NCBI GenBank assembly: GCA_024636775.1
Contig: JAGXGP010000018.1
Span: 1 to 48,754 of the forward strand
Length of the DNA stretch: 48,754 bases
Reading direction: 5' to 3'
Source of the DNA: Hydrogenophilales bacterium
GTDB taxonomy: Bacteria; Pseudomonadota; Gammaproteobacteria; Burkholderiales; Thiobacillaceae
Part shown: positions 22,571-39,603 of the stretch, piece after piece
Layout of the letters: every line of letters begins with the position of its first letter
Numbering within the stretch: position 1 is the first letter of the stretch
Translations under genes and position numbers: made by a program
The notes under the pieces: model-generated
Database searches by the model: none
What the model saw: only the letters and a program-made list of their open reading frames with translations
Told to the model about the DNA's origin: nothing

Positions 22571-23659
22571 TCAATGCCCCCGATGCATCGCAATCGGGAT
22601 GCGACGGTTGCCGAAGGGATGACTGAATGCACCAAACGTCCCTGCGATGTTCGTGCCGCAATGTGGACATAGGCCACCCACCATCAGGTTGTAATGGTTG
22701 ATTTGATACCAGTCGCGAACGATCAGTGGCTCATGACAGCTCGGGCAGAAAGTCGTGCCGCCCTGAGTGTCGTGCACGTTGCCGGTGTAAACATGATGCA
22801 AGCCGGCCTTCAATGCGATATCGCGTGCGTGCGTCAGCGTAGCGGCCGGCGTCGGCGGCACGTCCTGCATCTTCCAGTCGGGATGAAAAGCGGAGAAATG
22901 CAGCGGTACGTCGGGGCCGAGCTCGCGCATGATCCACTGGCTCATCGCCTCGATCTCGGCATCGGAATCGTTATGCCCGGGAATCAGCAATGTGGTGACC
23001 TCGAACCAGACGTCAGTCTCACGCTTCAGGTAAATCAGCGTGTCGAGCACCGGTTGCAAATGGCTGCCGGTCAGCTTGACGTAAAACGCATCGGTGAAGC
23101 CTTTGAGGTCGATGTTGGCCGCATCCATCTTGGCGTAGAACTCACGGCGTGGCGCTTCGTGAATATAGCCGGCAGTGACCGCAACCGTCTTGAGACCACG
23201 CGCATGACAGGCATCTGCCACGTCCATCGCGTATTCGGCGAAGATCACCGGATCATTGTAAGTAAAGGCCACGCTCTTGCAGCCGCTCTGTTCGGCGGCA
23301 GCGGCTATTTCATCCGGCGCCGCCTGATCCATCAAGGTATCAGTCTCACGCGATTTGGAAATATCCCAGTTCTGGCAGAACTTGCAGGCCAGGTTACAAC
23401 CGGCGGTGCCAAAGGAAAACACCGAAGAGCCGGGGTAAAAGTGGTTCAGCGGTTTCTTCTCGATGGGATCGATGCAGAAACCAGACGAACGGCCATAGGT
23501 GGTGAGCACCATCTTGCCGCTTTCCATTTTGCGCACAAAACACAGGCCACGCTGGCCCTCGTGCAGCTTGCAGTCGCGCGGGCACAGGTCGCACTGGATG
23601 CGACCGTCGGACAGCGCATGCCACCAGCGCGCCGGGTAATGGGATTCAGGAATACTCAT
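22571..23659 (-). CDS. amrS: AmmeMemoRadiSam-system radical SAM enzyme
   Basis: A 362-residue radical SAM protein. The cluster motif C-x3-C-x2-C is GCNLACKFCQNW. The N-terminal motif IQCDLCPRDCKLHEGQRG and a C-terminal zinc-finger-like pair (FCPSCHEPL, GLCPHCGTNI) are typical of the AmrS (PflA-like) family. In this uncharacterised three-part system AmrS is encoded with MEMO (AmrB) and AMMECR1 (AmrA) proteins. The gene here overlaps the preceding amrB-amrA fusion by 14 bases and has a strong GGAGGAGG ribosome site inside that gene's end. Reaction and substrate are not established, to my knowledge. Confidence 0.93.
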   Translation of the reverse strand: MSIPESHYPARWWHALSDGRIQCDLCPRDCKLHEGQRGLCFVRKMESGKMVLTTYGRSSGFCIDPIEKKPLNHFYPGSSVFSFGTAGCNLACKFCQNWDISKSRETDTLMDQAAPDEIAAAAEQSGCKSVAFTYNDPVIFAEYAMDVADACHARGLKTVAVTAGYIHEAPRREFYAKMDAANIDLKGFTDAFYVKLTGSHLQPVLDTLIYLKRETDVWFEVTTLLIPGHNDSDAEIEAMSQWIMRELGPDVPLHFSAFHPDWKMQDVPPTPAATLTHARDIALKAGLHHVYTGNVHDTQGGTTFCPSCHEPLIVRDWYQINHYNLMVGGLCPHCGTNIAGTFGAFSHPFGNRRIPIAMHRGH

Positions 23660-25186: not shown

Positions 25187-26659
25187 ATGGTTACATTCAA
25201 AGATGACGAAGACGGCACCTTGTTAAAGGCGATCCTTCAGGAGTCAGCCGCCGAGGTACTGGTTTTTGACGCAAAAACGCTGCAAATCATCCAGGCCAAC
25301 CCTTCTGCGGCAAGCAATCTGCAATACCCGCTCAAGACGCTTAAAAAGATGACTCCTCTGGATTGTCTGGCCCCGGAAGATGGCCGGCCATTTAACACAT
25401 TGCTGGCACTGCTTGGCAATGGCAAAAAACGGCGCACCGCACTCAATGCGCATTGTTGTCGCCGTGATGGCAGCCGCTATCCGGTTGAGGCCCGATTATT
25501 TTATTCGGTCAATCATGAAAAGCCTGTCTTTATCTACATCGCCAATGATGTCAGCCAACGTGAAGCCACCCGACTGGCACTTGCGCACTCGGAATCGGAC
25601 TTGCTTGCCATTGTGGCGAATATTCCGGGCATGGCCTATCAAGTACTCCGTAACAATGAAGGGGCAACCAGCCTTCGCTTTGTCAGCGAGCAATCGGCCC
25701 AACTGCTTGGAATCAAGGCGTCCATCCTGCGCGACCACCCGGATCGTTTCGTCAAACTGATCCTCAAGGAAGACAAGCCTGACTATCTGGCCCAACTGGA
25801 AAAAGCCGGTGGCGTACCCATGAGTTTCAACTGGGAAGGCCGCATCTGGATGGAGGCCTGGAAAGACGTCAAATGGATCAATATCCGCGTCACCCAGCGT
25901 GAAACACCAAATGGCCAGACTTGGGATGGAATCATGCTGAACGTCACGCACAGTAAACACTCTGAAGCGGAAATCCGGCGTTCCCGGTTCCAACTCAGTG
26001 CGCTGACGGCACACGTAGAAACCATCAAGGAACGGGAGCGCCTGCACCTGGCCCGCGAGGTACATGACGATCTGGGCGGCAATCTCGCCGCCATCAAAAT
26101 TGGCTTGTCATGGTTGAAGCAACGCTTGCCTGCAGGTGAAGTCGTTCTGGCTCAGCGCACCGACTATCTCGATAACGTCGTAGACCAAACGATTGAATCC
26201 GCGCACCGTATCGCGTCCAACTTGCGGCCTGCCATGCTCGAACTGGGCATTCTCTCGGCCATAGACTGGCAACTGCAACGGATGGCCCAGAATTCCGATA
26301 TCACTTACGAATTCAAAGCGCCGGATAAAAACATCCCCCTGACCCCGGATGCCACGATCGCAGTCTTTCGCATTGTGCAGGAAGCCCTCACCAATGTGGC
26401 CAAACATGCACGTGCCACGCGCGTCAAAGTAAAGGTCGTATTGAGTCAGAACGAGCTTTTAGTTAGCGTCGAAGACAATGGTCAGGGCATCGTATCGGAG
26501 GGCAACAAAAAAACCGGGTTTAGTTTTGGTATGCTAGGCATGACCGAACGCGCTACCACACTAGGGGGTGAACTCAGCGTACAAGCTGCCAAGCGTGGTG
26601 GCACCGAACTCAGTCTTCGCATCCCGCTTCACACTTTGTCGGTAGGCTCTGCAAAGTAA
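25187..26659 (+). CDS. Soluble PAS-PAS histidine kinase (HisKA_3, NarX/DegS type)
   Basis: A 490-residue sensor kinase without membrane segments, so it senses a cytoplasmic signal. Two PAS-like domains (residues about 15-125, with VLVFDAKTLQIIQANPSA, and about 135-265) precede the dimerisation helix. The phosphoacceptor is His293 in LAREVHDDLGGNLAAIKIGL. The ATPase domain has N-box FRIVQEALTNVAKHA and G-box VEDNGQGI and GFSFGMLGMTERA. No heme or flavin ligand motif is evident in the PAS domains. A GAGGGGA ribosome site precedes the ATG. The response regulator gene begins 34 bases later; they form a pair. Confidence 0.92.
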   Translation: MVTFKDDEDGTLLKAILQESAAEVLVFDAKTLQIIQANPSAASNLQYPLKTLKKMTPLDCLAPEDGRPFNTLLALLGNGKKRRTALNAHCCRRDGSRYPVEARLFYSVNHEKPVFIYIANDVSQREATRLALAHSESDLLAIVANIPGMAYQVLRNNEGATSLRFVSEQSAQLLGIKASILRDHPDRFVKLILKEDKPDYLAQLEKAGGVPMSFNWEGRIWMEAWKDVKWINIRVTQRETPNGQTWDGIMLNVTHSKHSEAEIRRSRFQLSALTAHVETIKERERLHLAREVHDDLGGNLAAIKIGLSWLKQRLPAGEVVLAQRTDYLDNVVDQTIESAHRIASNLRPAMLELGILSAIDWQLQRMAQNSDITYEFKAPDKNIPLTPDATIAVFRIVQEALTNVAKHARATRVKVKVVLSQNELLVSVEDNGQGIVSEGNKKTGFSFGMLGMTERATTLGGELSVQAAKRGGTELSLRIPLHTLSVGSAK

Positions 26660-26693: not shown

Positions 26694-27341
26694 GTGGCTG
26701 CTGCTAAACCGTATCGCATACTTATCGTCGACGACCACGCCATTGTTCGCGAGGGTCTCAAGCAAATCCTGGCTGAGGTGGCCGACATCGAAGTCGGCGG
26801 CGAAGCTGACTGCTCCAACCGCGCCATGCAGATGGCACGCAAGGAGCCGTGGGACTTGGTGTTGATGGACATTTCCATGCCCGACCGCAGCGGAATCGAA
26901 ACGCTCGAATTACTCAGAAAAGAGCATCCCAAGATCAAAGTGCTGATGCTGTCCATGCACCGCGAAACTCAATATGCAGTGCGTGCACTTAAATCTGGCG
27001 CAGCGGGTTATCTCAACAAGCAAAGCGCTCCGGATCAATTAGTCGACGCAATCCGCCTGGTCGCTTCGGGTAAAAAATACATCAGTGCAGAAGTCGCCCA
27101 GGAACTTGCCAACGAAGTCAGTGGCGAGCGCGCAGGCTTGCCGCATGAAAGTCTTTCCAACCGTGAGTACCAGACACTGTGCATGATTGCTTCTGGCCTG
27201 CCCGTCTCAGCCATTGCCGACAAACTCGCCCTGTCCGTCAAGACCATCAGCATGTACCGCGCCCGCATGCTGAAGAAAATGTTACTTAAGAACAATTCCG
27301 AATTGACCCACTATGCGATCAAACACGGCCTGCTCGACTAA
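26694..27341 (+). CDS. NarL/FixJ-family response regulator
   Basis: A 215-residue two-domain regulator. The receiver domain has the acidic pair DD at 13-14, phosphoacceptor Asp59 in LVLMDISMPDRSG and the Lys in GAAGYLNKQS. The C-terminal LuxR-type helix-turn-helix (LSNREYQTLCMIASGLPVSA, LSVKTISMYRARMLKKM) binds DNA. The start is a GTG at 26694 with no clear ribosome site. It is the partner of the kinase just upstream. Its targets are unknown; the flagellar and glycan genes downstream are candidates by position only. The stop is followed within 50 bases by the truncated duplicate of the diguanylate cyclase leader. Confidence 0.92.
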   Translation: MAAAKPYRILIVDDHAIVREGLKQILAEVADIEVGGEADCSNRAMQMARKEPWDLVLMDISMPDRSGIETLELLRKEHPKIKVLMLSMHRETQYAVRALKSGAAGYLNKQSAPDQLVDAIRLVASGKKYISAEVAQELANEVSGERAGLPHESLSNREYQTLCMIASGLPVSAIADKLALSVKTISMYRARMLKKMLLKNNSELTHYAIKHGLLD

Positions 27342-27390
27342 GCCATTTCGGGCTCTTCCCCGACTGGACCCGGAATTAAAGGGTTTTTTC

Positions 27391-27539
27391 AGCCTTAATC
27401 CACTCTTTACCCCCTCCTTCCCCGCCCTACCATGCAAAGCATGTAAAAGCCCGATCCGGGCCGGGGTATCAACGTGGCAGAACCCAGCATCAAGATCAAT
27501 GTAAAAATCCGACCGAAGTCGCGCGTGAAGCCTTGCGCC
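27391..27539 (+). pseudogene. Truncated duplicate of the diguanylate cyclase gene start and leader
   Basis: This stretch aligns with 36671-36821 at roughly 80% identity by eye with two one-base gaps. Shared blocks are CCTTAATCC, CCCTACCATGCAA, the GGGG ribosome site seven bases before the start, and GACCGAAGTCGCGCG. The start codon is GTG (27474) instead of ATG, and the peptide begins with AEPSIKINV exactly like the intact protein. A one-base loss after codon 9 (GTAAAAATCC against GTAGACAATCC) shifts the frame. Similarity stops abruptly after CCTTGCGCC at 27539. So it is a dead 5' fragment lying at the left edge of the glycan gene block, whose right edge is the intact gene. Confidence 0.85.
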
Positions 27540-27600
27540 ACGCTGATCCACCAGCACTCGGTTCTCCTGCAGCGAACGATTGAACCATCAAGGTTATTCG

Positions 27601-28716
27601 ATGAGCACTGATCCGAAGCCAATATACGTCACGCAACCCTATCTACCGCCACTGGATGAATTCATCCCCTATCTGGAGAAGATATGGGAGAGCAAGTGGC
27701 TCACCAACAATGGTCCTTTTCATCAGCAACTGGAACAGGCGCTGAGTGAGTACCTTGGCGTCGAGCACATCGCCTTGTTTACCAACGGCACGATCGCCCT
27801 GATTACCGCATTGCAATCGTTGCGAATCACGGGCGAGGTCATCACCACGCCCTATTCCTTTGTGGCAACCTCGCACTCCCTGCTATGGAACGGCATTAAA
27901 CCCGTGTTCGTGGACATCGACCGCAACACGTTCAATCTGGACCCGGCGAAGATCGAAGCCGCCATCACGCCGCAGACGACCGCCATCCTGCCCGTGCATT
28001 GCTATGGCCGTCCCTGCAATGTCGAGGCCATCGAGAAAATCGCGGACAACTACAACCTCAAGGTTATCTATGATGCGGCGCATGCATTTGGCGTGCGCGA
28101 CGCCGGCGGGAGCATATTGAGACATGGTGATTTATCGGTGCTGAGCTTTCATGCCACCAAGGTGTTCAATACCTTCGAGGGTGGAGCAATCGTCTGCCCG
28201 GATGCCAAGACCAAAACGCGAATCGATCATTTGAAAAACTTCGGTTTTGTGGACGAAGTTTCAGTCGTTGCCCCCGGCATCAATGGCAAGATGAGCGAGA
28301 TCAATGCGGCATTTGGCTTGCTTCAGTTGAAGCATGTTGACAAGGCGCTCGCGCGTCGCAAGGAAATTGACGCCACCTACCGTCAACGCCTGGAAGGGGT
28401 GAAAGGCATTCAATGTATGCCGGTTGATTGTGAGAACGAAATAAATTTCGCCTATTTCCCGATTCTTGTAGAGGCCGATTATTCGATGAGCCGTGACGAT
28501 CTTTTTCATAAGCTCAAGGACAATGACATCCATCCGCGCCGCTATTTTTATCCTCTGATTACCGATTTCTCGATGTACCGGGGCCTGCCATCGGCGCATC
28601 AGGATAATTTGCCCATTGCAGTCGACACCGCGCAAAAAGTCCTTTGCCTGCCTATTTTTCCGGATCTGGAAGACGAGCAAATCGACACCATTTCCAGACT
28701 GATTGCAGAGCAATAA
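27601..28716 (+). CDS. DegT/DnrJ/EryC1-family sugar aminotransferase
   Basis: A 371-residue PLP enzyme that puts an amino group on a nucleotide-linked keto-sugar. The start ATG at 27601 has AAGG eight bases upstream. The PLP lysine is about Lys187 in SFHATKVFNTFEGGAIV, and IYDAAHAFGV holds the Asp that contacts the cofactor nitrogen. KPVFVDIDRNTFNLDP and the dimer-active-site segment GKMSEINAAFGLLQL are typical. Related enzymes make viosamine, QuiNAc4N and other 4-amino sugars in O-antigen and flagellin glycans. It opens the plus-strand block that runs to the FkbM gene. The exact sugar is not readable. Confidence 0.92.
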   Translation: MSTDPKPIYVTQPYLPPLDEFIPYLEKIWESKWLTNNGPFHQQLEQALSEYLGVEHIALFTNGTIALITALQSLRITGEVITTPYSFVATSHSLLWNGIKPVFVDIDRNTFNLDPAKIEAAITPQTTAILPVHCYGRPCNVEAIEKIADNYNLKVIYDAAHAFGVRDAGGSILRHGDLSVLSFHATKVFNTFEGGAIVCPDAKTKTRIDHLKNFGFVDEVSVVAPGINGKMSEINAAFGLLQLKHVDKALARRKEIDATYRQRLEGVKGIQCMPVDCENEINFAYFPILVEADYSMSRDDLFHKLKDNDIHPRRYFYPLITDFSMYRGLPSAHQDNLPIAVDTAQKVLCLPIFPDLEDEQIDTISRLIAEQ

Positions 28717-28788
28717 TGCATTCCGAATATAGCGTCATGCAGAGGACAGACTCAGGCAACTCGTTTATATAGGTGCCCAATAACTGCG

Positions 28789-29469
28789 ATGGAAAATAAA
28801 AAACTGATCATCTACGGCAATGGCCAGATGGCACGCATGTTTCTGCATTTCGCGCAGCTTGAGCATGAGGTCGTGGCGTTTACAGTTGATCGTAGCGTTC
28901 TGTCCGATGCCGTCATCGAAGGCATTCCCGTCATTCCATTCGAGGAAATCGAAACCCATTATTCCCCGGCTGATCACTGCCTGATTATTGCTGTCGGCTA
29001 TCGGGAAATGAACCATTTGCGAGCCCGTAAGTATCAAGAAGGACTCGCCAAAGGGTATACATTTGCCAGCTACATCCATTCCTCCGTTGTGCGTCACTCG
29101 AGTGTTTCTGTAGGCGAGAACGCCATCATCCTTGACCATGTTGCTATTCACCCCTATACACAGATCGGCAACAGCGTCTTTATTGCCAGCAACGCATCGA
29201 TCGGACACGGCTGTCGCATCGAGGACAATTGCTGGATCAATTCAGGTGTTGCCATCGGGGGCGAGACGGTGATTGGGAATGCAACTTTCTTGGGCATCAA
29301 CGCCACCATCGGTGACAACACTCAGCTCGGCGGACAGTGTTTTGTGGGGGCCAATACACTTATCACGCGCAGCACCTCCGCCGAAGAAGTTTACATCTCT
29401 GCGAGCGGCGAACGTTTTCCGCTGTCGAGCCAGGCTTTCCTTCAGTTTATCTCCCGCTCCAGCCGATAG
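28789..29469 (+). CDS. NeuD/PglD-like sugar N-acyltransferase (left-handed beta-helix)
   Basis: A 226-residue acyltransferase. The N-terminal 80 residues form a small Rossmann-like sugar-binding domain (KKLIIYGNGQMARMFLHFAQ, FEEIETHYSPADHCLIIAVG). The rest is a hexapeptide-repeat beta-helix (SSVVRHSSVSVGENAIILDH, ASIGHGCRIEDNCWINSG, VIGNATFLGINATIGDN). The catalytic His of PglD-type enzymes would be in IGHGC or ILDHVA. It probably acylates the amino group put on by the DegT enzyme. With an acyl carrier protein and ligase nearby, the donor may be an acyl-ACP instead of acetyl-CoA; this is inference. Confidence 0.88.
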   Translation: MENKKLIIYGNGQMARMFLHFAQLEHEVVAFTVDRSVLSDAVIEGIPVIPFEEIETHYSPADHCLIIAVGYREMNHLRARKYQEGLAKGYTFASYIHSSVVRHSSVSVGENAIILDHVAIHPYTQIGNSVFIASNASIGHGCRIEDNCWINSGVAIGGETVIGNATFLGINATIGDNTQLGGQCFVGANTLITRSTSAEEVYISASGERFPLSSQAFLQFISRSSR

Positions 29470-29476
29470 CATTCCC

Positions 29477-31039
29477 ATGCTGACTGCCCTTCAATCCGCA
29501 CCCCTCTACACACACTTCCGGCATGCCGCTGAATGCAATCCGGGCAAGCTGGCGCTGGTGGTGGGCAATGTCCACTACGCCTATCGCGATCTCTTGCAGG
29601 AAGTGGATGCGCTGGCGGATGGCCTGTCGAGTGCGGGAGTGGAGGCCGGAGACCCCGTCGGCGTGCTATTACCCAATTGCGCCGAGTTTGTTTTGCTCCT
29701 GCTCGCCGGCGCGCGGCTTGGCGTGGTCATCGTGCCCCAGAGCATGGGATTGGCCGAGGATGCGCTGATCTCCACTTTCAAGGCTGCCGATGTCCGGCAT
29801 CTGGTCGCATGGTCGGGGGCCACGGCCAAGCTTGCCGATCTGAGCCTTCCGCAAGGTGGAATTCGCGTCGTGGCAGGCGGCGCGCAGGCGGGCTGGACAC
29901 CGTTGCAGGCGCTGATTGAGGCGGGCAAAGACCAGCCCAAGCGCGCACCCATGCTGCAAGATGAGCTGCCTTACCTCATGGTTCTCACGTCGGGCTCCAC
30001 CGGCAAGCCCAAACCCATTCTCCTCAGCCAGCGCACCAAACTGATGCGGGCCACTGCGGCCGCTGAGTTGTATGGCGTCAGCGCTGACGATGTGACGCTT
30101 GCCGCCACCCCGCTTTATCATTCTCTGGCGCAACGGCTTGTGCTGATGCCGCTGATCTCAGGCGGGACCAGTATCGTCATGGCGCATTTCAGTCCGGCCA
30201 CCTGGATCGCCGAGGTCCGTCGGCACGGCGTAACATTTTCTATTGCGGTCTCATCCCAGCTCAGGCAAATACTGGATGTATTGATTGCCGGCAAAGAAAC
30301 GCTGCCCTCGCTGCGCTGCCTGGTGTCCTCTTCGGCACTGCTGGACGATGCCACGAAAGCCCGGCTGCTGACGCACCTGCCCTGTGAGTTTCATGAGTGC
30401 TACGGCGCGTCGGAAATCGCCATCGCCACCAACCTCTCTCCCGGCACCAACCTCTCTCCCGGTGATGCCTTACGTAAACTGGGTTCGGTGGGCACCGCCA
30501 TTCCCGGAACAGATGTCCTGATCATTGACGAAAATGGGCTGCTAGTACCACCGAACACCCCTGGCGAAATCGTTTGCCGCACGCCCATGCTTTTCAGCGG
30601 TTACTACGCCCAGCCCGCTGCCACGGAAGCCGCCATGTGGGGGCACTATTTCCGTACCGGCGATCTCGGCATGATGGACAGCGAAGGCTTTCTCTTCTTC
30701 CTCGGCCGGATCAAGGACATCATCATTTGCGGCGGGATCAACATATATCCAAAGGACATCGAGGATGTCATTGCGACCCATCCCTCAGTCAAGGAATGTG
30801 CGGCCATTCCATTGCCGGACGAACAACTGGGTGAAGTAGTTGGGGTGGTCGTTGCAGTGCATGCGCCAGACGCACCACCGGCACCGCGCGACCTGCAACG
30901 ACTTTGCATGCAGCGTTTGGGGGATTTCCAGCAGCCCCGCCGTTTCTTCATTGTGAGCGAGCTGCCAAGGAACACAATGGGCAAACTCGACAAACCCGCA
31001 CTTCGTCAGGCCTATTCAACTGGCCTGTATAAAGAATAA
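29477..31039 (+). CDS. Adenylate-forming acyl-CoA/acyl-ACP ligase
   Basis: A 520-residue ANL-superfamily enzyme that activates a carboxylic acid as acyl-AMP and passes it to a thiol. The start at ATG 29477 lies seven bases after the acyltransferase stop; the longer frame merely overlaps that gene. Motifs: LTSGSTGKPKPILLS (ATP loop), YGASEIAIATN, YFRTGDLGMMDSEGFLFFLG, IKDIIICGGINIYPKDIE, and the C-terminal catalytic lysine in LPRNTMGKLDKPALR. The locus contains a free acyl carrier protein, the likely thiol acceptor. Residues after ATN show a duplicated NLSPGT/NLSPGD from an 18-base tandem repeat at 30428-30463. Confidence 0.9.
   Translation: MLTALQSAPLYTHFRHAAECNPGKLALVVGNVHYAYRDLLQEVDALADGLSSAGVEAGDPVGVLLPNCAEFVLLLLAGARLGVVIVPQSMGLAEDALISTFKAADVRHLVAWSGATAKLADLSLPQGGIRVVAGGAQAGWTPLQALIEAGKDQPKRAPMLQDELPYLMVLTSGSTGKPKPILLSQRTKLMRATAAAELYGVSADDVTLAATPLYHSLAQRLVLMPLISGGTSIVMAHFSPATWIAEVRRHGVTFSIAVSSQLRQILDVLIAGKETLPSLRCLVSSSALLDDATKARLLTHLPCEFHECYGASEIAIATNLSPGTNLSPGDALRKLGSVGTAIPGTDVLIIDENGLLVPPNTPGEIVCRTPMLFSGYYAQPAATEAAMWGHYFRTGDLGMMDSEGFLFFLGRIKDIIICGGINIYPKDIEDVIATHPSVKECAAIPLPDEQLGEVVGVVVAVHAPDAPPAPRDLQRLCMQRLGDFQQPRRFFIVSELPRNTMGKLDKPALRQAYSTGLYKE
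30428..30463 (+). repeat. 18-base tandem duplication within the ligase gene
   Basis: ACCAACCTCTCTCCCGGC (30428-30445) is followed directly by the same 18 bases with a final T (30446-30463). It is in frame and adds six residues right after the YGASE adenylate motif. It looks recent because 17 of 18 bases agree. Confidence 0.9.
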
Positions 31040-31047
31040 GGACACAC

Positions 31048-32175
31048 ATGGCTCATACTCAACTGCCCCATCTGCGACTGGGTTTTATTGGCGGCGCTTT
31101 GAACTCGGCCGTGGGGTACACGCACTACAATTCCAGCCGGCTTGACGGCCAATTTCGCGTGGATTGCGGGTGCTTCAGCCGGCGCCCCGAGATCAATGAA
31201 GAAACGGCACGGACCTACGGCATTCCTGCCGAGCGCACGCATGGCACCTGGCACGCGTTGCTGGAGAACGAAAAGCAATCACTTGATGCCATCGTCGTAC
31301 TGACGCCGACACCGGACCACAAAGAGGTTGTGATCGCGGCACTCGATGCCGGTTATTCGGTTATTTGCGAGAAGGCCTTGACCGTGTCCAGCGAAGCGTG
31401 CCGCAGCATTGGAGCGGCCGTGACACGCAACACGGGATTTCTCGCCGTAACCTACAACTATTCCGGCTACCCGATGGTGCGTGAGTTGCGCCGCATGATG
31501 GCCGATGGAGACCTGGGGCGGATTCAGCAGATTCACATCGAGATCCCCCAGGAAGGTTATCTGCGGCAGGCGGCGGCGCCACAAGCCTGGCGTCTCAAGG
31601 ATTATGCCGTCCCCACGGTGTCACTCGATCTGGGCGTACATGCCCACCATCTGGTCCATTTCCTGACTGGCGGCAAGACGCCCCTCGAGGTCATGGGCGA
31701 TCAGTGCACCTATGGCCAGTTCAGCGATATCATCGACAACGTCTATTGCCTAGCACATTACGAAGACGACCTGCGTGTGCAGTCCTGGTTCGGTAAAACT
31801 GCGCTTGGCAACCGCAACGGTCTGCGCATACGCGTTTACGGCAGTCTGGCAAGCGCCGAATGGTTCCAGATGCAGCCCGAAGATTTGCTGTTCAGTCAGG
31901 CTGACGGACGCAGAGTGCTCATCGACCGCGGATCAGGCGATGCCGACCTGGCCAGGCAGTTGCGCTACAACCGCTTCAAGTCAGGTCATCCATCCGGATT
32001 CATCGAGGCCTTCGCCAATCTCTATACCGATATTGCCGAGCAGTTGCGTCAGCATCAATCTGGCGTCATGACACGTAGCGATTTCGTGTATGGCGTCGGC
32101 GAATCGGAAGAGGGCATGCGTTTCCTGGAAGCCATTTCCCGTTCGGCCCAAACAAGACAGTGGGAGGCGGTATGA
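31048..32175 (+). CDS. Gfo/Idh/MocA-family sugar oxidoreductase
   Basis: A 375-residue NAD(P)-dependent dehydrogenase. The N-terminal Rossmann fold is LRLGFIGGALNSAVGYTHYN, an unusual version in which GxGxxG is replaced by GGALNSAVG. DAIVVLTPTPDHKEVVIAAL and CEKALTVSSEACRSIG correspond to the family's cofactor loop and E-K-P motif, here E-K-A. The C-terminal half has the beta-sheet substrate domain with DLGVHAHHLVHFLTGG, containing the likely catalytic His. Family members oxidise or reduce sugar hydroxyls, often on UDP-sugars. The end overlaps the ACP start by four bases (ATGA), indicating coupled translation. Confidence 0.88.
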   Translation: MAHTQLPHLRLGFIGGALNSAVGYTHYNSSRLDGQFRVDCGCFSRRPEINEETARTYGIPAERTHGTWHALLENEKQSLDAIVVLTPTPDHKEVVIAALDAGYSVICEKALTVSSEACRSIGAAVTRNTGFLAVTYNYSGYPMVRELRRMMADGDLGRIQQIHIEIPQEGYLRQAAAPQAWRLKDYAVPTVSLDLGVHAHHLVHFLTGGKTPLEVMGDQCTYGQFSDIIDNVYCLAHYEDDLRVQSWFGKTALGNRNGLRIRVYGSLASAEWFQMQPEDLLFSQADGRRVLIDRGSGDADLARQLRYNRFKSGHPSGFIEAFANLYTDIAEQLRQHQSGVMTRSDFVYGVGESEEGMRFLEAISRSAQTRQWEAV

Positions 32176-32450
32176 CTCTCCCCAACTCGGTTGGCGCAAC
32201 CTCGCACACCGTTTACGACTTCGTCGTGCAGTTGCTCAAAGAAAAAGGTGCGATCCCTGAGCCTGAAGCGATGATGGCCTATCGATATCTCGCAAATGGC
32301 CATATCGATTCACTGGCCTTCATCAAATTCATCTTTCGTATTGAAGAGCACTTCGGTATTCAATTCACAGAATCGGAAATGATCGGCGACAGGGTTAAAA
32401 CTGTCGGCGAACTGATTGCGTTGATTGAAGAGAAGCTACGTCAACCTTAA
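32172..32450 (+). CDS. Acyl carrier protein
   Basis: A 92-residue carrier protein. The phosphopantetheine serine is Ser47 in NGHIDSLAFIKFIFRIEEHF, the D-S-L motif followed by the typical recognition helix. It is acidic overall with a C-terminal helix (TVGELIALIEEKL). The start ATG at 32172 is inside the stop of the oxidoreductase gene (ATGA overlap). An upstream GTG-type start four codons earlier is possible. It is not the housekeeping fatty-acid ACP, because no fab genes are near. It most likely carries the acid activated by the ligase of this block on its way to the amino sugar. Confidence 0.9.
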   Translation: MTLPNSVGATSHTVYDFVVQLLKEKGAIPEPEAMMAYRYLANGHIDSLAFIKFIFRIEEHFGIQFTESEMIGDRVKTVGELIALIEEKLRQP

Positions 32451-32530
32451 AGCAGACGATTCACATAGGATTCCTTGGCGCGAGTTATCAGACCGATGAT
32501 TGTGATTGCCAGTTATAAAGCGAGATAACA

Positions 32531-33625
32531 ATGAGTTTCAATCAATTTAGATTCGTGCCGAATGAAAAGCACCAAGCATTTGTCAGTGACTTTTTAAATC
32601 CTGAGTGCACGAAAAAGAAATACATCATGGGGATGTCCAGGGATGGCTACGCACTGGATGTGTGTCAGCTGGTTGAAATTGACGGATTTGTAGACGATTT
32701 TTCCAGTATCGGATCTTATGCGGGGAAACCCATTTTCACATCAGCGCACATATCAAAAGACAGCATGATTTTGGTCTGCTCAACAGTTAGAACGGTTACC
32801 GCAAATAATGCCTTGAAAGCGAGGGGTTTCGCAAACGTACTGGATTATCCAAGTTTCTTTCTTCATGCGAACAATGCCAAATTGCGTTTAAGAATATTTG
32901 ATGGTTTCGCAAAAGAATTTGAAATGAATCGGGATCAATTTGAATGGGTCTGTAATTTACTTTGCGATGCAAAATCGCAGGAGATATTCAATACGCTTGT
33001 CGAATACAGAATTACCGCTGATATAGGTCTCATGGCAGATTATTCTTACATTCCAAATGAGCAGTATTTTCCGGACTTTCTGGAATTGGATAAAGAAGTC
33101 TTTATGGATATTGGTGGATATGACGGACAAACGAGTTTGGAACTTATCAAACGGTGCGCTAACTACGCTGCCATTTATCTATTTGAGCCATCTGAATCCA
33201 ATTTAGTGAAGGCAAAAGATAATTTGTCCGGTTTTTCAAATATCCATTTCATCAATAGAGGCTTGTCTGATAAGCCGGCAGAATTAAAATTCAACAGCAA
33301 TGAGGGTTCTGCAAGCAGGATTTCAGAATCCGGCGACGTGACGATTTATGTTGACGCCTTGGACAATCTGGTTACAGAAAAGACGACTTTTCTTAAAATG
33401 GATATTGAGGGGGCGGAGTCTTTAGCGATTGAAGGCGCCAGACGGCATATCTTGAATGATCACCCAAAAATGGCAATTGCCGTCTATCACAAGCTGGATG
33501 ACTTTTGGAAGATCCCTAAACAAATCTTGTCCATTCGGGATGATTATGACTTGCACTTGAGGCATTACACCGAAGGTACTGATGAAACGGTTATGTACTT
33601 TATTCCGCACAAAAGTGAACGTTGA
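32531..33625 (+). CDS. FkbM-family methyltransferase with N-terminal Rossmann-like module
   Basis: A 364-residue protein. Residues about 190-355 are an FkbM SAM-dependent methyltransferase: VFMDIGGYDGQTSLELIKRC (SAM loop), IYLFEPSESNLVKAKDNL, FLKMDIEGAESLAIEGARRH. The N-terminal 110 residues (KKYIMGMSRDGYALDVCQLV, IDGFVDDFSSIGSYAGKPIF) resemble the sugar-binding module of PglD-like proteins and are often found on FkbM enzymes. It probably O-methylates a sugar of the glycan. The gene is much more AT-rich than its surroundings (sampled lines at 30-37% GC), a sign of separate acquisition. It sits 80 bases after the ACP gene and converges on the OGT-like gene. Confidence 0.88.
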   Translation: MSFNQFRFVPNEKHQAFVSDFLNPECTKKKYIMGMSRDGYALDVCQLVEIDGFVDDFSSIGSYAGKPIFTSAHISKDSMILVCSTVRTVTANNALKARGFANVLDYPSFFLHANNAKLRLRIFDGFAKEFEMNRDQFEWVCNLLCDAKSQEIFNTLVEYRITADIGLMADYSYIPNEQYFPDFLELDKEVFMDIGGYDGQTSLELIKRCANYAAIYLFEPSESNLVKAKDNLSGFSNIHFINRGLSDKPAELKFNSNEGSASRISESGDVTIYVDALDNLVTEKTTFLKMDIEGAESLAIEGARRHILNDHPKMAIAVYHKLDDFWKIPKQILSIRDDYDLHLRHYTEGTDETVMYFIPHKSER

Positions 33626-33639
33626 TTAAAAGCAATCCC

Positions 33640-33663
33640 CATTTCCTGCTGCAGTCGGAAATG
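33640..33663. terminator. Weak hairpin between convergent fkbM-like and OGT-like genes
   Basis: CATTTCC (33640-33646) pairs with GGAAATG (33657-33663) across a ten-base loop. There is no T-run. It sits between two convergent stops, so a bidirectional terminator is possible. Confidence 0.35.
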
Positions 33664-33682
33664 AACGGTTGGGCACACCACC

Positions 33683-36265
33683 TTACGTAGCGCACCATTT
33701 CCGCCATGCCTTCCGATATGCAGCTTCCAGATGACGTGTGACGGTGCCTGGTTCGCAGCTTGACGCGCTCATCCTGTCACGAATTGATTGTCTGATTCGA
33801 TTCAGACTTGGCAGATTCTGTGCCATCTGTGTGGCGCATTGAAGATATTCTTCCTCGTTGTGCGTGATGAATTCACTCAGACCGACACGCGACAGTAACG
33901 GAACAGCGCAGCGCGATGCCATATGCTCCCCCGCCATCGTGATGACCGGCACTCCCATCCAAAGCGAGTGCATCGTGGTTGTTCCGCCATTGTAGGGAAA
34001 GGGGTCAAGCGCCAAATCGATCTTATGGTGCAACGCCAGATAATCGCTGAGTGACATGCGCGGCTGCAGTATCAAGCGATCGGCAGCAACGCCCGCTTTG
34101 CTGAACTGTTCAATCACTTGTTGCAGAACGCCACGATCTGTTACGTTTCCAAGCATCAGTCTGGCATGCGGTATCGCATCAAGAATTCTTGCCCACAGCT
34201 TGATAACTGACTGGTTTATTTTGATCAGGTTGTTCATAGAGGCAAATATAAACTCGTCGCTGGTCAGAGCCGGCAATGGATTGACAGGCGGACAACCCGG
34301 TTCTGGTCGGTATGCCACGCTTGTGTCCGGCATGCGTATCAGTGACTCGCTGTGATAACGCTCGGTCAGTCCGGGGGGATCCACGCCTTCATTCGTAATC
34401 CGGTAATCCATCGCAGTCAGTCCGGTAGAGCCGGGGTAACCGATCCACGTCACTTGTACTGGCGCGGGCTTGCGGGCAAACACGAGTAGGCGATTGTGGC
34501 CAGTGTGTCCGGACAGATCAACCAGGATGTCTATGCCGTCGGCACGAATGCGTTCGGCGAGTTGCGCGTCGCTCATACTCGCGCAGGCCAGCCAGTGGTC
34601 CGCGTAGGCGGCAATCCGGTCAGTATGGCTATCGTGCCTGGTGTGGTTGTAATAGCAATAAATCTCCACCCGAGATTTATTGTGGTTAGCCAAAATCGGC
34701 TCGATGAAGAAGGCCACCGCATGATTTCTAAAATCTGCAGAAACATAACCGATTTTGAGCCGTCGTTCGGGGTCACGGCTATTTTGGTGCGGCAGCCAGT
34801 TCGCTTTGAGTGGGGTTTCATACCGTTCTGCAAAGCGCTGGTGCTCGCTGAATACCTCCACCGGCGTGATTGTGTTCATGTACTGCATGGTATAGAGCAG
34901 GTTGCTGTACGTCATGGCCAAATCCGGCTGGATCGAGAGTGCATGCCGGAAGCAGGAAATTGCTTCGTCCAGATTCCCTTGATCCCGGAGCGAGTTCCCC
35001 AGATTGCTGCATACCGCAGCAGCATCCGGCTGGATCAGAAGTGCCTGCTTGCTGCATGCGACTGCTTCGTCCAACTGACCGAGTGCCCTGAGCACACTCC
35101 CCAGACCGTCAAGCGCCTCGGCATAATCCGGCTTGAGTCTGATGGCCTCTCTGCAGGATGCAGCCGCTTCGTCCAGCCGGCCCTGCTCATAGAGCGTATT
35201 CCCCAGATTGCTGTGTAACTCGGCCAAATGCGGCCTGATCGATACGGCCCGTTGGTAGCAGGTAATTGCCTCTTCCTGCTCGCCCAGCTTATTGAGCACA
35301 TTCGCCAGATTGTTGTATGCCTCGACATAATCTGGCTTCAATCTGATTGCTTCCCGGTATTGGGTGGCCGCTTTCTCCACTTTATCTTGGTCCTTGAACA
35401 CCCCAGCTAGGTTGCTGTGTGCCTCGGCGAAATTCGGCCTGATCGAAATGGCCTGTTGATAGCATGCAATCGCCTCTTCCTGCTCACCCAGCTTATTGAA
35501 CACAATAGCCAGGTTGTTATATGCCTCGGCATCATCCGGCTTGAGTCTGATTGCCTCCCGGTATCGGATGACCGCCTCGGTCAGCTTGCCTTGCATTTGG
35601 AGCACATCACCCAGGTTGTAGTGTACTTGTGCCAGATTCGGATTAATTTTGAGGGCCTTGCAATAGCTGGCAGCCGCTTCTGTCAACTTGCCTTGCGTTT
35701 GAAACACATCGCCCAGATTGTTGTGTAGCGGAGCGTTACCAGGCGTGAGCAGAATGGCTTTTTGGAAGCTGGCGACCGCCCCTGCCAGCTTGCCTTGATC
35801 CTTGAATGCATTCCCCAGGTTGTAGTGGGCATTGGGGTGTTTGGGCTGTAATGAAATGGCCTTCTGAAAACTGTCGGTGGCTTCCGACAACTGGCCCTGT
35901 GCCATGAGCACAACCCCAAGATTATTGTGTACATCGGCGTCATGCGGCTTGATTTCGATGACCTGGCCGAAAAATACGGCTGCCACATCATGCATGCCTA
36001 TTTGATAAGCGATCATTCCAAGCAGATACAAGGCATCTGGATGATTGGGTGATTTCTGCAATATTTGCTGGCAAACCGTCTCAGCCTCGACCAGTCGCCC
36101 GGCCTGATGGTGCCCGGTTGCAAGCTGCAAGGCATTGGATAGCTCCATAGCCGCTGAAGGCGGGCTTGCTGGTCGCCCCGCCTCCGAGAGCAAGCAACAC
36201 TGTTTGTATTTTTTTCCACTTCCACATGGACACGGATCATTACGAGTGACTTTATTAATTTTCAT
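33683..36265 (-). CDS. SEC-C motif, TPR array and O-GlcNAc-transferase-like (GT41) glycosyltransferase
   Basis: An 860-residue protein likely to glycosylate Ser/Thr of flagellin. Residues 10-25 are a SEC-C zinc motif (NDPCPCGSGKKYKQCC) like the SecA tail. About 12-13 TPRs follow to about residue 480 (repeat cores such as ADVHNNLGVVLMAQGQLSEA). The C-terminal 380 residues are the SPINDLY/OGT catalytic region: LKIGYVSADFRNHAVAFF with the conserved His, WIGYPGSTGLTAMDYRITN, LILQPRMSLSDYLALH and DPFPYNGGTTTMHSLWMGVP, which holds the UDP-sugar site. Two adjacent TPR pairs are near copies, 204 bases apart (35232-35436). The gene points toward the plus-strand glycan genes and lies 2.2 kb from fliC. 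Confidence 0.92.
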   Translation of the reverse strand: MKINKVTRNDPCPCGSGKKYKQCCLLSEAGRPASPPSAAMELSNALQLATGHHQAGRLVEAETVCQQILQKSPNHPDALYLLGMIAYQIGMHDVAAVFFGQVIEIKPHDADVHNNLGVVLMAQGQLSEATDSFQKAISLQPKHPNAHYNLGNAFKDQGKLAGAVASFQKAILLTPGNAPLHNNLGDVFQTQGKLTEAAASYCKALKINPNLAQVHYNLGDVLQMQGKLTEAVIRYREAIRLKPDDAEAYNNLAIVFNKLGEQEEAIACYQQAISIRPNFAEAHSNLAGVFKDQDKVEKAATQYREAIRLKPDYVEAYNNLANVLNKLGEQEEAITCYQRAVSIRPHLAELHSNLGNTLYEQGRLDEAAASCREAIRLKPDYAEALDGLGSVLRALGQLDEAVACSKQALLIQPDAAAVCSNLGNSLRDQGNLDEAISCFRHALSIQPDLAMTYSNLLYTMQYMNTITPVEVFSEHQRFAERYETPLKANWLPHQNSRDPERRLKIGYVSADFRNHAVAFFIEPILANHNKSRVEIYCYYNHTRHDSHTDRIAAYADHWLACASMSDAQLAERIRADGIDILVDLSGHTGHNRLLVFARKPAPVQVTWIGYPGSTGLTAMDYRITNEGVDPPGLTERYHSESLIRMPDTSVAYRPEPGCPPVNPLPALTSDEFIFASMNNLIKINQSVIKLWARILDAIPHARLMLGNVTDRGVLQQVIEQFSKAGVAADRLILQPRMSLSDYLALHHKIDLALDPFPYNGGTTTMHSLWMGVPVITMAGEHMASRCAVPLLSRVGLSEFITHNEEEYLQCATQMAQNLPSLNRIRQSIRDRMSASSCEPGTVTRHLEAAYRKAWRKWCAT

Positions 36266-36754
36266 GGCGCAGTGATGGGAATAACGATAGAAACCGTTCA
36301 GCGTTCATTGAAGCCATCCTTTTATATACTTCACACAATCATCCCGCACTCACGATCACGGCACGACGTTACCCCGGAAGAGGCAACGCCTCCCCCTTCT
36401 GGATGCGCCTTGCAAGCGGGGAGTATGGATGCAGTCCTGCTTGCACATTCAAACTCAAAATGGATTCAAGCCAATCCGTCTGCTTTAATGCACCAAACGC
36501 TCAATGGCGAGCCTTTCGGTTGCGGCGCCCAGGATCGAGAATAGATTTGGTCAGACGTGTTTCCATCGTCACATTCTCTTCAAGCCCAGGCAGAGGAAAG
36601 GCCCGTGCCCAAGTACTAGTATTTTCTATACTTGGCGCCTAACCCAGGCGCAGAAATAACGGGGTTTTGCTGCCTTAATCCGCCCTTTACCTCACCCCTT
36701 TCCCCCCTACCATGCAATGCATAGAGAAAGCCCAATCTGGGCTGGGGTGTGAAT
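36266..36754. promoter_or_regulatory. Divergent region between the OGT-like gene and the diguanylate cyclase gene
   Basis: 489 bases without a convincing gene. Two inverted repeats stand out: CCAAGTA (36609-36615) with TACTTGG (36629-36635), the second arm overlapping a TATACT box (36627-36632), and GCGCCT (36635-36640) with AGGCGC (36646-36651). Downstream is the leader duplicated at 27391. The first repeat could be an operator and the second a leader hairpin; neither is proven. Confidence 0.45.
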
Positions 36755-36821
36755 ATGGCCGAGCCAAGCATCAAAATCAATGTAGACAATCCGACCGAAG
36801 TCGCGCGCGAAACCTTGCGCC
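36671..36821 (+). repeat. Right-hand copy of the duplicated diguanylate cyclase leader/start
   Basis: Intact counterpart of the fragment at 27391-27539, about 80% identical by eye. Both copies are in the same orientation and flank the 9-kb glycan gene block as direct repeats. Confidence 0.85.
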
Positions 36822-38341
36822 GCCTGGCCATGCGACGGATTGCCCCTACCCCGGATAACTATCAGACCCTGTTTGATGAAATTGTAGGTGGGCCCAGCCC
36901 AACCAATTCCAACACACCCACCGCAGCTACCGCACTGTCCGGGCTGGTGATGGACCTCAATCTGCACCACCCAGAACTTGGCGAAACAGTAGAAGTCCTG
37001 GATCAGGCGGTGCGCAAAGGTGACTGGGGCCAAAGCCGCAAGCAGTTGGGACAAATCAGCCGAAAGCTCAAACAACTGGCCGAGGCGAATAGCGGCGACA
37101 CACGACCGCAGTCTGAAGATCTGGTCCTGTTGCGCGATTTGCTCGCCAAAACCCTGGAGTTTGGCGTGGCCACCCAGCTGCCGCACAATCCAAAACTGGC
37201 TGAGAAAGCCCAGCAGCTTGCAGTCTCCGTGCGTGAAGCCCATAGCGCCGATACATTGAGCAAGGCCGCTGCGTCTCTGAAATCCCTTTGGCTCAGTATC
37301 GAAATTCAATCCTCCGACACCCACGATCAGCAAGAAACGCTCAAGCGCATCCTGCTGCTGCTAGTGGAAAACATCGGCGAACTGCTGGACGACGATACTT
37401 GGCTGCGCGGCCAGCTCAACATGGTACAAGACGTCATTGCCGGCCCGCTCAAGATCAAGTCACTGCAAGAGGCGGAACAGCGACTCAAGGAAGTGATCTA
37501 CAAGCAAGGTCTGGTCAAACACGGCCTGCGCGAAGCCACCGCCACCCTTAAAGCCACCATGACCCATTTCGTCAGTCGCATGAGTGATGTTGTCGCGGCC
37601 AATGATGAATACCAGGAAAAGATCGCCTCCCACATCGAGCAAATCAGCAACACCGAAGACGTGCTCGAATTGAACCGGATCCTCGAAACTCTGCTGGATG
37701 AAACGCGCACGGCGCAAGCAGATACCCGACGCGCCCACGACAAACTGGTCCATGAGCGTGATATCGCACAACAGGCCGAAGGCCGCATCAAGCAGCTGGA
37801 AACCCAGCTTGCCGAGATGAGCACGCTGGTACGTGAAGATCCCCTGACCCACAGCCTGAACCGGCGTGGGCTGGATGACGAATTTGCGCGTGAGGCGTCA
37901 CGCGCCGATCGCTATAAATCTGCGCTCTGCGTCGCGGTATTGGACATCGACAATTTCAAGGCACTCAACGACAAACGCGGTCACCAAAGAGGTGATGAAG
38001 CCCTGATCCACCTGGTCAATGTAGCCAAGGAAGAATTACGCCTCACCGACCAGATCGCGCGCCTGGGTGGCGAAGAATTCCTGATCATGCTGCCGAGCAC
38101 GCCGCTTGATGCCGCAGCCACCATCATCACGCGGCTGCAGCGCAACCTCACCAAAAAATACTTTCTCGACAACAACGAGAAGGTATTGATCACCTTTAGT
38201 GCCGGCGTGGCCGAGCGCGCGCTGGGCGAATCCCAGGAATCCTTGATCGGGCGTGCAGACAGCGCCATGTATGAAGCCAAACAGACTGGAAAGAACCGGG
38301 TTTGCCTGGCGCCCGACGCGCCGCAGGAGCCCGCCAAATGA
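36755..38341 (+). CDS. Diguanylate cyclase (GGDEF domain) with long helical N-terminus
   Basis: A 528-residue soluble protein that should make cyclic-di-GMP. The ATG at 36755 has GGGG seven bases upstream; a GTG two codons earlier is possible. Residues 1-340 are helical without a recognised sensor. Residues about 310-360 (DKLVHERDIAQQAEGRIKQL) look like a coiled coil. The C-terminal GGDEF domain has DPLTHSLNRRGLDDEF, the active GGEEF at 438-442 and the feedback-inhibition site RLTD at 429-432. The gene ends 168 bases before fliC, so it may set cyclic-di-GMP near flagellar assembly. A truncated copy of its start lies at 27391-27539. Confidence 0.92.
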   Translation: MAEPSIKINVDNPTEVARETLRRLAMRRIAPTPDNYQTLFDEIVGGPSPTNSNTPTAATALSGLVMDLNLHHPELGETVEVLDQAVRKGDWGQSRKQLGQISRKLKQLAEANSGDTRPQSEDLVLLRDLLAKTLEFGVATQLPHNPKLAEKAQQLAVSVREAHSADTLSKAAASLKSLWLSIEIQSSDTHDQQETLKRILLLLVENIGELLDDDTWLRGQLNMVQDVIAGPLKIKSLQEAEQRLKEVIYKQGLVKHGLREATATLKATMTHFVSRMSDVVAANDEYQEKIASHIEQISNTEDVLELNRILETLLDETRTAQADTRRAHDKLVHERDIAQQAEGRIKQLETQLAEMSTLVREDPLTHSLNRRGLDDEFAREASRADRYKSALCVAVLDIDNFKALNDKRGHQRGDEALIHLVNVAKEELRLTDQIARLGGEEFLIMLPSTPLDAAATIITRLQRNLTKKYFLDNNEKVLITFSAGVAERALGESQESLIGRADSAMYEAKQTGKNRVCLAPDAPQEPAK

Positions 38342-38509: not shown

Positions 38510-39172
38510 ATGGCACAAGTAATCAACACCAACGTAGGCGCACTGTTTGCTGGCGCAGCACTGAACAAATCTGCAATCAGCCTGCAAACCGCCCAGGAAC
38601 GCCTGTCATCCGGCCTGCGCATCAACAGCGCCAAGGACGATGCAACCGGCCTGGCCATTGCCACGGGTTATGACACCCAGATCCGCACCACAAACGTGAA
38701 CATTCGTAACGCCAACGACGCCATTTCGACGGCACAAACCAACGATGGCTATCTGGGGCAAATCACCGAAAACTTGCAACGCATTTCGGAAGTTTTGACT
38801 GGCGGCGGTGGCTCGGCAGAAACAACGGCGCTTGTCTCTGAAAATACGCGCATTAACGCACTTATTACTACTGGTGCACCAACCCTTACTGCCTCGGGTG
38901 CTGGCACCGCTGGGCAAGTCGCCTCCGACCTCGCTGCGGTAGGAACTGCACGCGCTGCTTTTGGCGCCACCATGGCGACCAAAGCATCCGAAGTGGCCAC
39001 CCTGCAGATTAGCGCAGTGAACCTGTCGGCTGCATTCAGCCGCGTCATGGATACTGACTATGCTGCAGAAACTACCGCCCTCGCCCGCAGCAATATTCTG
39101 CAACAGGCAGGAACGGCCATGCTGGCACAAGCAAACCAGACACCGCAAAACGTGCTGAGCTTGCTGCGTTAA
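38510..39172 (+). CDS. fliC: Flagellin, very short form
   Basis: Filament protein of only 220 residues, against about 270-500 in most bacteria. The N-terminal D0/D1 part is well conserved (MAQVINTNVGALFAGAALNK, QERLSSGLRINSAKDDATGL, NIRNANDAISTAQTNDG). The C-terminal D0 ends in the classic ILQQAGTAMLAQANQTPQNV plus LSLLR. Between them only about 80 residues remain, rich in Gly, Ala, Ser and Thr, and the usual S-R-I-E-D is changed to SRVMDTDYA. No frameshift is seen. A strong AAAGGAGAA ribosome site precedes the ATG. A weak sigma28-like promoter can be drawn around 38369-38395 but is not convincing. The nearby OGT-like protein suggests the surface is glycosylated. Confidence 0.93.
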   Translation: MAQVINTNVGALFAGAALNKSAISLQTAQERLSSGLRINSAKDDATGLAIATGYDTQIRTTNVNIRNANDAISTAQTNDGYLGQITENLQRISEVLTGGGGSAETTALVSENTRINALITTGAPTLTASGAGTAGQVASDLAAVGTARAAFGATMATKASEVATLQISAVNLSAAFSRVMDTDYAAETTALARSNILQQAGTAMLAQANQTPQNVLSLLR

Positions 39173-39193
39173 GCAGTTGATTAATGTGACTCA

Positions 39194-39218
39194 CCCTGGC
39201 CGGCCTGGCCGGCCAGGG
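39194..39218 (+). terminator. Strong GC hairpin between fliC and flaG
   Basis: CCCTGGCCGGCC (39194-39205), a single T, GGCCGGCCAGGG (39207-39218): a perfect 12-base inverted repeat. No T-run follows, so it may act as a partial terminator or protect the abundant fliC message from decay instead of ending transcription fully. Confidence 0.6.
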
Positions 39219-39240
39219 ACTTAACGTGAAGGATGTCATC

Positions 39241-39588
39241 ATGATAATCCAGAATACCCCCCACCTAATTCAGGCCAGCTTGCCTGGGAGTCACGCTAGC
39301 GGGGCCGCGCCAGTTCAATTTGTCGCCGATGTCCCTGCCCAGAATAATGCTCCAAAACCGTCTATTGCAGAATTGGAAAGCGCAGTGTTTGCGATTAATC
39401 AAGGCATGCAGCAAGCGAACCTTAACCTGCAGTTCAGCGTTGACTCCGATTCCAAACGAACCGTGGTCAAAATGGTGGACACCAGCACGGGCGAACTGAT
39501 TCGCCAGTATCCAACAGAAGCGACCCTGGCCATTTCACACGGGATCGAACAGCTCCAGCAGGGCCTGCTCCTTAAACGAGAGGCTTGA
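39241..39588 (+). CDS. flaG: FlaG family protein
   Basis: A 115-residue cytoplasmic protein that in other bacteria affects filament length. The conserved C-terminal part is KRTVVKMVDTSTGELIRQYP followed by an amphipathic helix; the N-terminal half is variable. The ATG at 39241 has AAGGA at 39229-39233; a GTG at 39226 is an alternative. It lies between fliC and fliD, the common place for flaG, and 15 bases ahead of fliD. Confidence 0.88.
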   Translation: MIIQNTPHLIQASLPGSHASGAAPVQFVADVPAQNNAPKPSIAELESAVFAINQGMQQANLNLQFSVDSDSKRTVVKMVDTSTGELIRQYPTEATLAISHGIEQLQQGLLLKREA

Positions 39589-39603
39589 TCCGGGAGAATA
39601 AGC

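Follow-up and report, generated by a model that had tools for sequence, protein, structure and literature searches.

That flagellin glycosylation islands exist and are exchanged horizontally is already known. The Geobacillus report describes variable sets of sugar-modification genes beside the flagellin gene in 18 of 36 strains, with signs of horizontal acquisition, and draws the island loci with a transposase and truncated genes (PMC5109656). FlmG of Caulobacter is described as having an N-terminal TPR region and a C-terminal domain of the GT-B superfamily, and as sufficient for flagellin glycosylation (PMC7591256). Two further systems concern resident sequence that is kept or duplicated. Homology-facilitated illegitimate recombination was put forward for T6SS effector-immunity arrays in which resident genes are retained (PMC5361080, PMC3240628), and pneumococcal merodiploids were reported to arise by transformation, through alternative pairing of the incoming DNA, with duplication of resident sequence (PMC3784515).

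The DNA analysed here, hereafter the window, is a stretch of 48,754 nucleotides from a Hydrogenophilales bacterium (GCA_024636775.1, contig JAGXGP010000018.1, positions 1 to 48,754). Like the islands described for Geobacillus, it carries a variable, apparently acquired sugar set beside the flagellin gene; unlike them, the set occupies a place upstream of fliC with a response regulator on one side and a cyclase on the other, one of its products is a TPR-GT41 enzyme, and it is bordered by a seam made of a cyclase stub and its leader (PMC5109656). The GT41 protein is similar to FlmG in its TPR region and C-terminal glycosyltransferase domain (PMC7591256), a likeness by description; it has 860 aa, with a SEC-C motif at its N terminus and a GT41 match in Pfam, and FlmG has 596 aa (PMC7591256). 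As in the T6SS arrays, one end would be homologous and the other non-homologous, with a displaced resident piece kept (PMC5361080, PMC3240628); those arrays keep an entire immunity gene (PMC5361080), and the window would have kept a promoter region with 22 codons by a comparable process. The pneumococcal duplications span about 100-900 kb versus some 170 bp in the window (PMC3784515). In the literature search, Thiobacillus was mentioned together with flagellin glycosylation and a glycosyltransferase only in a Campylobacter study. The unusual part of this locus is a retained or duplicated leader that recurs at one site.

Organization of the locus

The features of the window that are relevant here are the following.

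25187..26659, plus strand: sensor histidine kinase, resident left flank (Pfam HisKA_3, HATPase_c; 89% DNA identity to G065)
26694..27341, plus strand: LuxR-type response regulator (domain search; directly precedes the cyclase in most relatives)
27373..27473, plus strand: cyclase leader (promoter region), left or resident copy (alignment with the right copy and relatives)
27474..27541, plus strand: truncated cyclase start of GTG and 22 codons, codon 11 lacking one base (alignment)
27541..27545, no strand: left joint of cyclase stub to cassette, where cassette homology starts; the cassette flanks of some relatives share a short GCGCC(A) with it
27601..28716, plus strand: DegT/DnrJ-type sugar aminotransferase (domain searches)
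28789..29469, plus strand: NeuD/PglD-like hexapeptide acyltransferase (domain searches; below the NCBIfam NeuD cut-off)
29477..31039, plus strand: AMP-forming acyl ligase (domain searches; start set where homologues begin)
31048..32175, plus strand: Gfo/Idh/MocA oxidoreductase (domain search)
32160..32450, plus strand: acyl carrier protein (Pfam PP-binding, 4.9e-7; weak NCBIfam carrier-protein matches)
32531..33625, plus strand: FkbM-family methyltransferase (domain searches)
33683..36265, minus strand: SEC-C, TPR and GT41 (O-GlcNAc-transferase-like) glycosyltransferase (Pfam)
36266..36652, no strand: spacer from the GT41 gene to the right leader (comparison with G006)
36653..36754, plus strand: right leader copy, before the intact cyclase (alignment)
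36755..38341, plus strand: intact diguanylate cyclase (GGDEF), 528 aa (domain search; relatives' homologues)
38510..41031, plus strand: fliC (220 aa), flaG and fliD, unlike the closest relatives' versions

The gene order downstream of the block is cyclase, fliC, flaG, fliD, fliS, fliK, fliF and fliG. A preliminary description of this DNA had reported that the cyclase start occurs twice in the same orientation, at about 80% identity, broken on the left, intact on the right and bracketing all glycan genes, and this anatomy proved real. Leader, start and 22 codons are present twice as direct repeats spaced by 9.28 kb, over spans slightly longer than first given, and pairwise alignment of 27373-27541 with 36653-36823 gave 81.8% identity over 170 aligned columns. 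The left copy breaks off at about 27541, its shifted frame ending at 27611 and thereby overlapping the DegT start at 27601, and the right copy heads the complete cyclase; every glycan-type gene found sits between the two. Conserved alignment columns were matched at 60 of 64 by the left copy and at 63 of 64 by the intact one.

The sequences upstream of the two leaders are of different affinity. The left leader shares its context with G007 and partly with G065, the 27342-27372 segment also matching the regulator-cyclase spacer of G007, and that of G065 from 27357 onwards. The right leader shares its context with G006, in which 36595-36652 is also present before the intact leader. Another part of the spacer, 36322-36594 (~270 bp), is absent from G006 at the corresponding place and occurs as a single copy in the window's genome; an ORF in it had no Pfam match.

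The empty site in Thiobacillus

A cyclase match over the full or nearly the full length was obtained in 44 of the 56 genomes of the genus (in two pieces in G018 and with one stop in G071). In 36 of these 44 mapped loci, the window's included, regulator and cyclase lay on one stretch, and only three of the 36 (G000, which is the window's genome, G066 and G073) had glycan genes between them. Among the 33 without glycan genes, the regulator-cyclase gap measured 89-334 bp in 31, 453 bp in G001 and 1430 bp in G002, where it was filled by dispersed repeats and other sequence. None of these 33 genomes, each searched with its own leader, had a second leader copy beside the regulator; a weak extra match of 39 bp in G012, located 5 kb away from the cyclase and with E 4e-4, was judged to be chance. 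The closest relatives, G007 and G065, have gaps of 133 and 136 bp and one leader copy each. The outcome that the preliminary description had named as refuting, both copies in relatives lacking the block, was thus not observed in these 33. In the other eight genomes (G004, G006, G010, G013, G025, G064, G071 and G074) the regulator was not on the cyclase stretch, being located on another contig in seven and not found in G025. In the latter, the cyclase is preceded by a GT41 gene that runs off the end of the contig, and the available 3.8 kb contained no second leader.

Homologues of the ligase (E ≤ 1e-60) were detected in 8 of the 56 genomes, and the block was at the cyclase only in G000 and G006. 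In the other six the regulator-cyclase adjacency was kept, and the block lay on a different contig (G005 and G008) or about 19-44 kb off on the same one (G027, G060, G079 and G015). The block thus has the variable presence within the genus, with an empty site, that is expected of a flagellin glycosylation island. Homology of the block begins at 27545 with G079, at 27554 with G027 and at 27562 with G006, shortly past the end of the stub at 27541, and the joint is therefore sharp. The GCGCC(A) found near it in some flanks may represent microhomology or chance.

Ancestry of the two copies

The genes to the left of the block and the intact cyclase presented different patterns of divergence. The dS values for histidine kinase, response regulator and cyclase were 0.34, 0.29 and 0.59 between the window and G065; 0.92, 0.71 and 0.58 between the window and G007; and 0.97, 0.51 and 0.53 between G065 and G007, the three cyclases being roughly equally far apart. 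In the joint tree of the kinase and the regulator the window was sister to G065, with alternatives 104-106 lnL units worse. The best cyclase tree paired the window with G007, 12 lnL units better than the pairing with G065, which was not rejected (p-AU 0.0875). Because the intact cyclase protein is still closest to those of G065 (92%) and G007 (91%), the donor, if it was imported, must be a near relative.

The short leader did not separate the alternatives for the window. The best leader tree paired the stub with G007, and grouping the stub with the intact copy (p-AU 0.45) or with G065 (p-AU 0.48) was acceptable; identity to G065 was 83.2% for the stub and 83.6% for the intact copy. The stub, G065 and G007 start with GTG GCA GAA and the intact copy with ATG GCC GAG; the GTG start is also present in G069 and G076. 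The two copies of G006 were recovered as sisters with supports of 98/81 in a first leader tree, made without G061, G071 and the G073 remnant, and of 91/28 in a second, made additionally without the G066 remnant, G008, G033 and G077 (disturbed or long-branched rows), which fits an in-place duplication in that genome.

Extent of the putative imported stretch

Nearest neighbours change along the window. From 25.0 to 27.4 kb the nearest genome is G065 (89-91%); in the block the nearest are the cassette carriers, and in the cyclase G065 and G007 (80-90%). From about 38.2 to 41.2 kb the nearest are G016 and then mostly G027 with other short-flagellin genomes, and beyond 43 kb it is G007 (83-94%). 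The flagellin itself has 220 aa in the window, 602 in G065 and 527 in G007. Identity to G007 recovers after ~43 kb with no exact breakpoint, and these changes in identity place the probable right boundary near 42-43 kb; the G065 contig ends near 42.1 kb and that of G006 within fliC, so both are uninformative further right. G+C along the window had no clear step, save for the low FkbM part. One import from a related carrier would account for the block, the cyclase and the filament genes together, and two separate events are possible instead. No cassette donor was found among the genomes sampled.

Parallel seams in related genomes

A comparable arrangement occurs in G006, in the order cyclase truncated after ~115 codons, IS5-type remnant, block and intact cyclase. 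The remnant resembles the end of an IS5-family transposase, its peptide matching plasmid records, some of them labelled IS5 family or ISRme1, at 84% over 43 of 51 residues, and had no Pfam match. The truncated and intact copies of G006 are 88% identical over some 450 bp and have a dS of 0.26, other pairs in the set ranging from 0.22 to 0.34. Moreover, the private codon changes of the truncated copy are eight synonymous to one non-synonymous, with no stop in 115 codons, compared with 5 to 5 in the intact copy of G006, 4 to 3 in G002 and 6 to 2 in G021. Given these changes and the open frame, the truncated copy diverged mostly while it was working.

This case bears on the age of the insertion, which had been called old on the divergence of the repeats. 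That argument is not supported, since the copies of G006 differ about as much as orthologues of different species and the changes of the truncated one are mostly synonymous; dating by repeat divergence was consequently discarded. The unlike dS patterns of the left flank and the intact cyclase in the window also speak against it. The window's own stub is too short to show such divergence directly, and by analogy with G006 the difference between its repeats would not measure the age of the insertion.

In G066 a different gene set (GT41, DegT, FkbM and GFO, all forward) lies between regulator and cyclase, and a second leader copy is located right after the regulator and immediately upstream of the GT41 start. 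At L172, the locus of G066, the leader copy abuts the GT41 start (reverse complement, ~5998-6120) as if the promoter region had been taken over. G073 carries a gene set of the G066 kind and a more decayed leader remnant, visible when aligned with G066. Its own leader retrieved no second copy at E 1e-3, and a 27-bp match to another genome's leader was obtained at E 6e-4. The left joints are thus of three kinds (G000, G006, and G066 with G073), each within the cyclase or at its start.

Origin of the seam

The preliminary description had proposed either insertion with target duplication or recombination between two cyclase loci. Compared with its closest relatives, the window does carry the block as an insertion, and the anatomy is explained by recombination between two alleles of the cyclase; target duplication was not borne out. 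The repeated gene start is most likely what remains, at a seam, of the former neighbouring gene. On balance, we favour a cassette that came with its own cyclase from a related Thiobacillus, its left end joined non-homologously inside the resident cyclase. The incoming stretch would have contained the glycan genes, the intact cyclase with its leader and probably fliC-flaG-fliD, from a related Thiobacillus outside the sample, and would have replaced the resident cyclase-to-filament segment. Its right end may have entered by homologous recombination near 42-43 kb. The left end would have had no pairing partner and would have been joined behind codon 22 of the resident gene, possibly where a few bases were alike. 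The product would be the resident leader with 22 codons, the cassette, and the incoming leader with a whole cyclase; the resident leader would now stand before the DegT operon, which it may drive, while the incoming leader would serve the cyclase. This combination would resemble homology-facilitated illegitimate recombination; at 27541-27545, between stub and cassette flank, comparison with relatives' cassette flanks gave at most a few bases of similarity. Later loss of the block through the direct repeats, raised in the preliminary description, is possible.

A different history, which we regard as unlikely although it explains part of the data, begins with a duplication of the cyclase locus in the resident lineage. 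The cassette would then have inserted between the two copies, and most of the first copy, which has since changed, would have been deleted. This history agrees with the acceptable grouping of stub and intact copy in the leader tree, with the 83-84% identity of both to G065, with the sister copies of G006 and with the cyclase tree in which the pairing of window and G065 was not rejected. Nevertheless, a second leader beside the regulator is missing from all 33 block-less genomes, the left flank and the cyclase have different dS patterns, and the changes in the truncated copy of G006 do not point to long decay.

Integration, by one Campbell-type crossover in the leader, of a circular molecule that bore the cassette and the beginning of a cyclase locus would predict the exact order and orientation observed, truncated on the left and complete on the right, and the IS5-type remnant beside the truncated copy of G006 is compatible with cassette movement. 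This route is nonetheless doubtful: the ligase at 1e-60 matched none of 72,556 plasmids, no integrase or phage protein, nor any transposase, was found among the ORFs scanned (ten larger ORFs, the carrier protein and the spacer ORF), and the replaced fliC-flaG-fliD would be left unexplained.

The genome is a draft (87% complete, 159 contigs), as would suit a chimera of contigs from two strains in a metagenome bin, but this is very improbable, considering that the longest identical run common to both copies is 20 bp, which would offer little to mislead an assembler, and that the same type of structure appears in G006, in G066 and weakly in G073. Transposition target duplications are typically short and identical. 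Direct repeats do flank the block, but repeats of 170 bp that differ by 18%, unlike upstream contexts on the left and right, and a scan of ORFs free of transposase make transposition with target-site duplication barely credible; it was rejected on repeat length and identity. Finally, promoter regions can be common to several operons, but a widespread leader element or chance similarity can, at the sensitivity of the searches, practically be dismissed, because a 248-bp repeat query retrieved only the left and right copies in the window's own genome (E 6.1e-38), a 102-bp leader query two places only (next match E 0.25), and the similarity extends into coding sequence.

In addition to these own-genome searches, which decided the matter, a weaker check was made with another species' leader against 12 genomes. 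It gave matches in eight and two leader places only in G000 and G066, with an additional 25-bp chance-level match in G000; its sensitivity was limited, as it missed the truncated copy of G006 and the leaders of G065, G073, G011 and G023.

The leader as a candidate promoter

From its position, the left leader is a candidate promoter for the DegT operon. A σ70 consensus scan detected a promoter in neither leader, and such terminator-like sites as the scans gave were on the minus strand. Private changes of the stub affected 1 of 33 conserved versus 10 of 52 variable leader sites (p 0.027), and 2 of 45 conserved coding sites versus the same 10 of 52 (p 0.026), in one-sided tests chosen after the data had been seen and with one of the coding changes located at the joint. 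The leader of the intact copy had a similar pattern, with 2 changes at conserved and 14 at variable sites.

More tentatively, the regulator-cyclase junction may be a recurrent landing site, in which cassettes bring a cyclase allele and the resident leader is left behind as the cassette promoter. The left joints of G000, of G006, and of G066 with G073 would be its instances, with the leader copy of G066 directly before the glycosyltransferase gene. If so, each arrival would place a new glycan operon under the control that acts on the flagellar neighbourhood, and the cyclase would retain its own promoter. On the favoured reading of the seam, what looks like an old duplication is a readable trace of recombination, and the divergence of flanking repeats need not date an insertion. 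Should the keeping of the promoter hold, Thiobacillus would offer a natural series of swaps of surface-sugar sets beside the flagellin gene, wired locally.

Function and relation to the flagellin

The gene content points to an amino sugar, acylated and possibly methylated, that would be attached to protein by the GT41 enzyme. This enzyme has an FlmG-like architecture, combining Pfam TPR families with a C-terminal Glyco_transf_41 domain (3.5e-61). Sugar biosynthesis and glycosyltransferase genes adjoin the filament genes, as in flagellin glycosylation islands; judging from gene content and position, the set probably decorates the flagellum with sugar, and because the block sits beside fliC, flagellin is the likeliest target.

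Across the genus, the first flagellin was complete and short (198-242 aa) in 25 genomes and long (457-613 aa) in 12. The ligase-type block was present in seven of the former and none of the latter (Fisher 0.047), and any such glycan set in 11 and none, respectively (Fisher 0.005); these classes cover the 44 genomes except the seven whose flagellin was missing, cut or broken (G004, G006, G013, G016, G018, G063 and G074). When relatedness was considered on a cyclase tree of 43 of the 44 genomes, built by a quick method, the link was not significant, with 3 and 4 independent pairs on supported branches and none opposite. The genus-wide link with short flagellin is suggestive only.

Additional sequence features

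In the TPR region of the GT41 gene, a 204-bp tandem duplication (35205-35612) is 77% identical between its units. The eight closest homologues of this gene have open frames of 691 to 910 codons, and the number of repeats therefore seems variable.

A dispersed palindromic intergenic repeat of ~55 bp occurs many times in Thiobacillus genomes, for example at 2530-2640 and 12235-12295 of locus L139 and at about 1330-1530 of locus L133, and an array of it lies directly left of the truncated cyclase of G006. The leader of G061 includes this repeat, and a query containing it gave 33 matches in G002, 18 in G065 and 3 weak ones in the window's genome; the many matches of this query are consequently uninformative on the leader.

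On the minus strand of the window, at 22571-25013, a Memo/AMMECR1 fusion gene adjoins a radical SAM gene, and this pair lies beside the histidine kinase in many of the mapped Thiobacillus loci.
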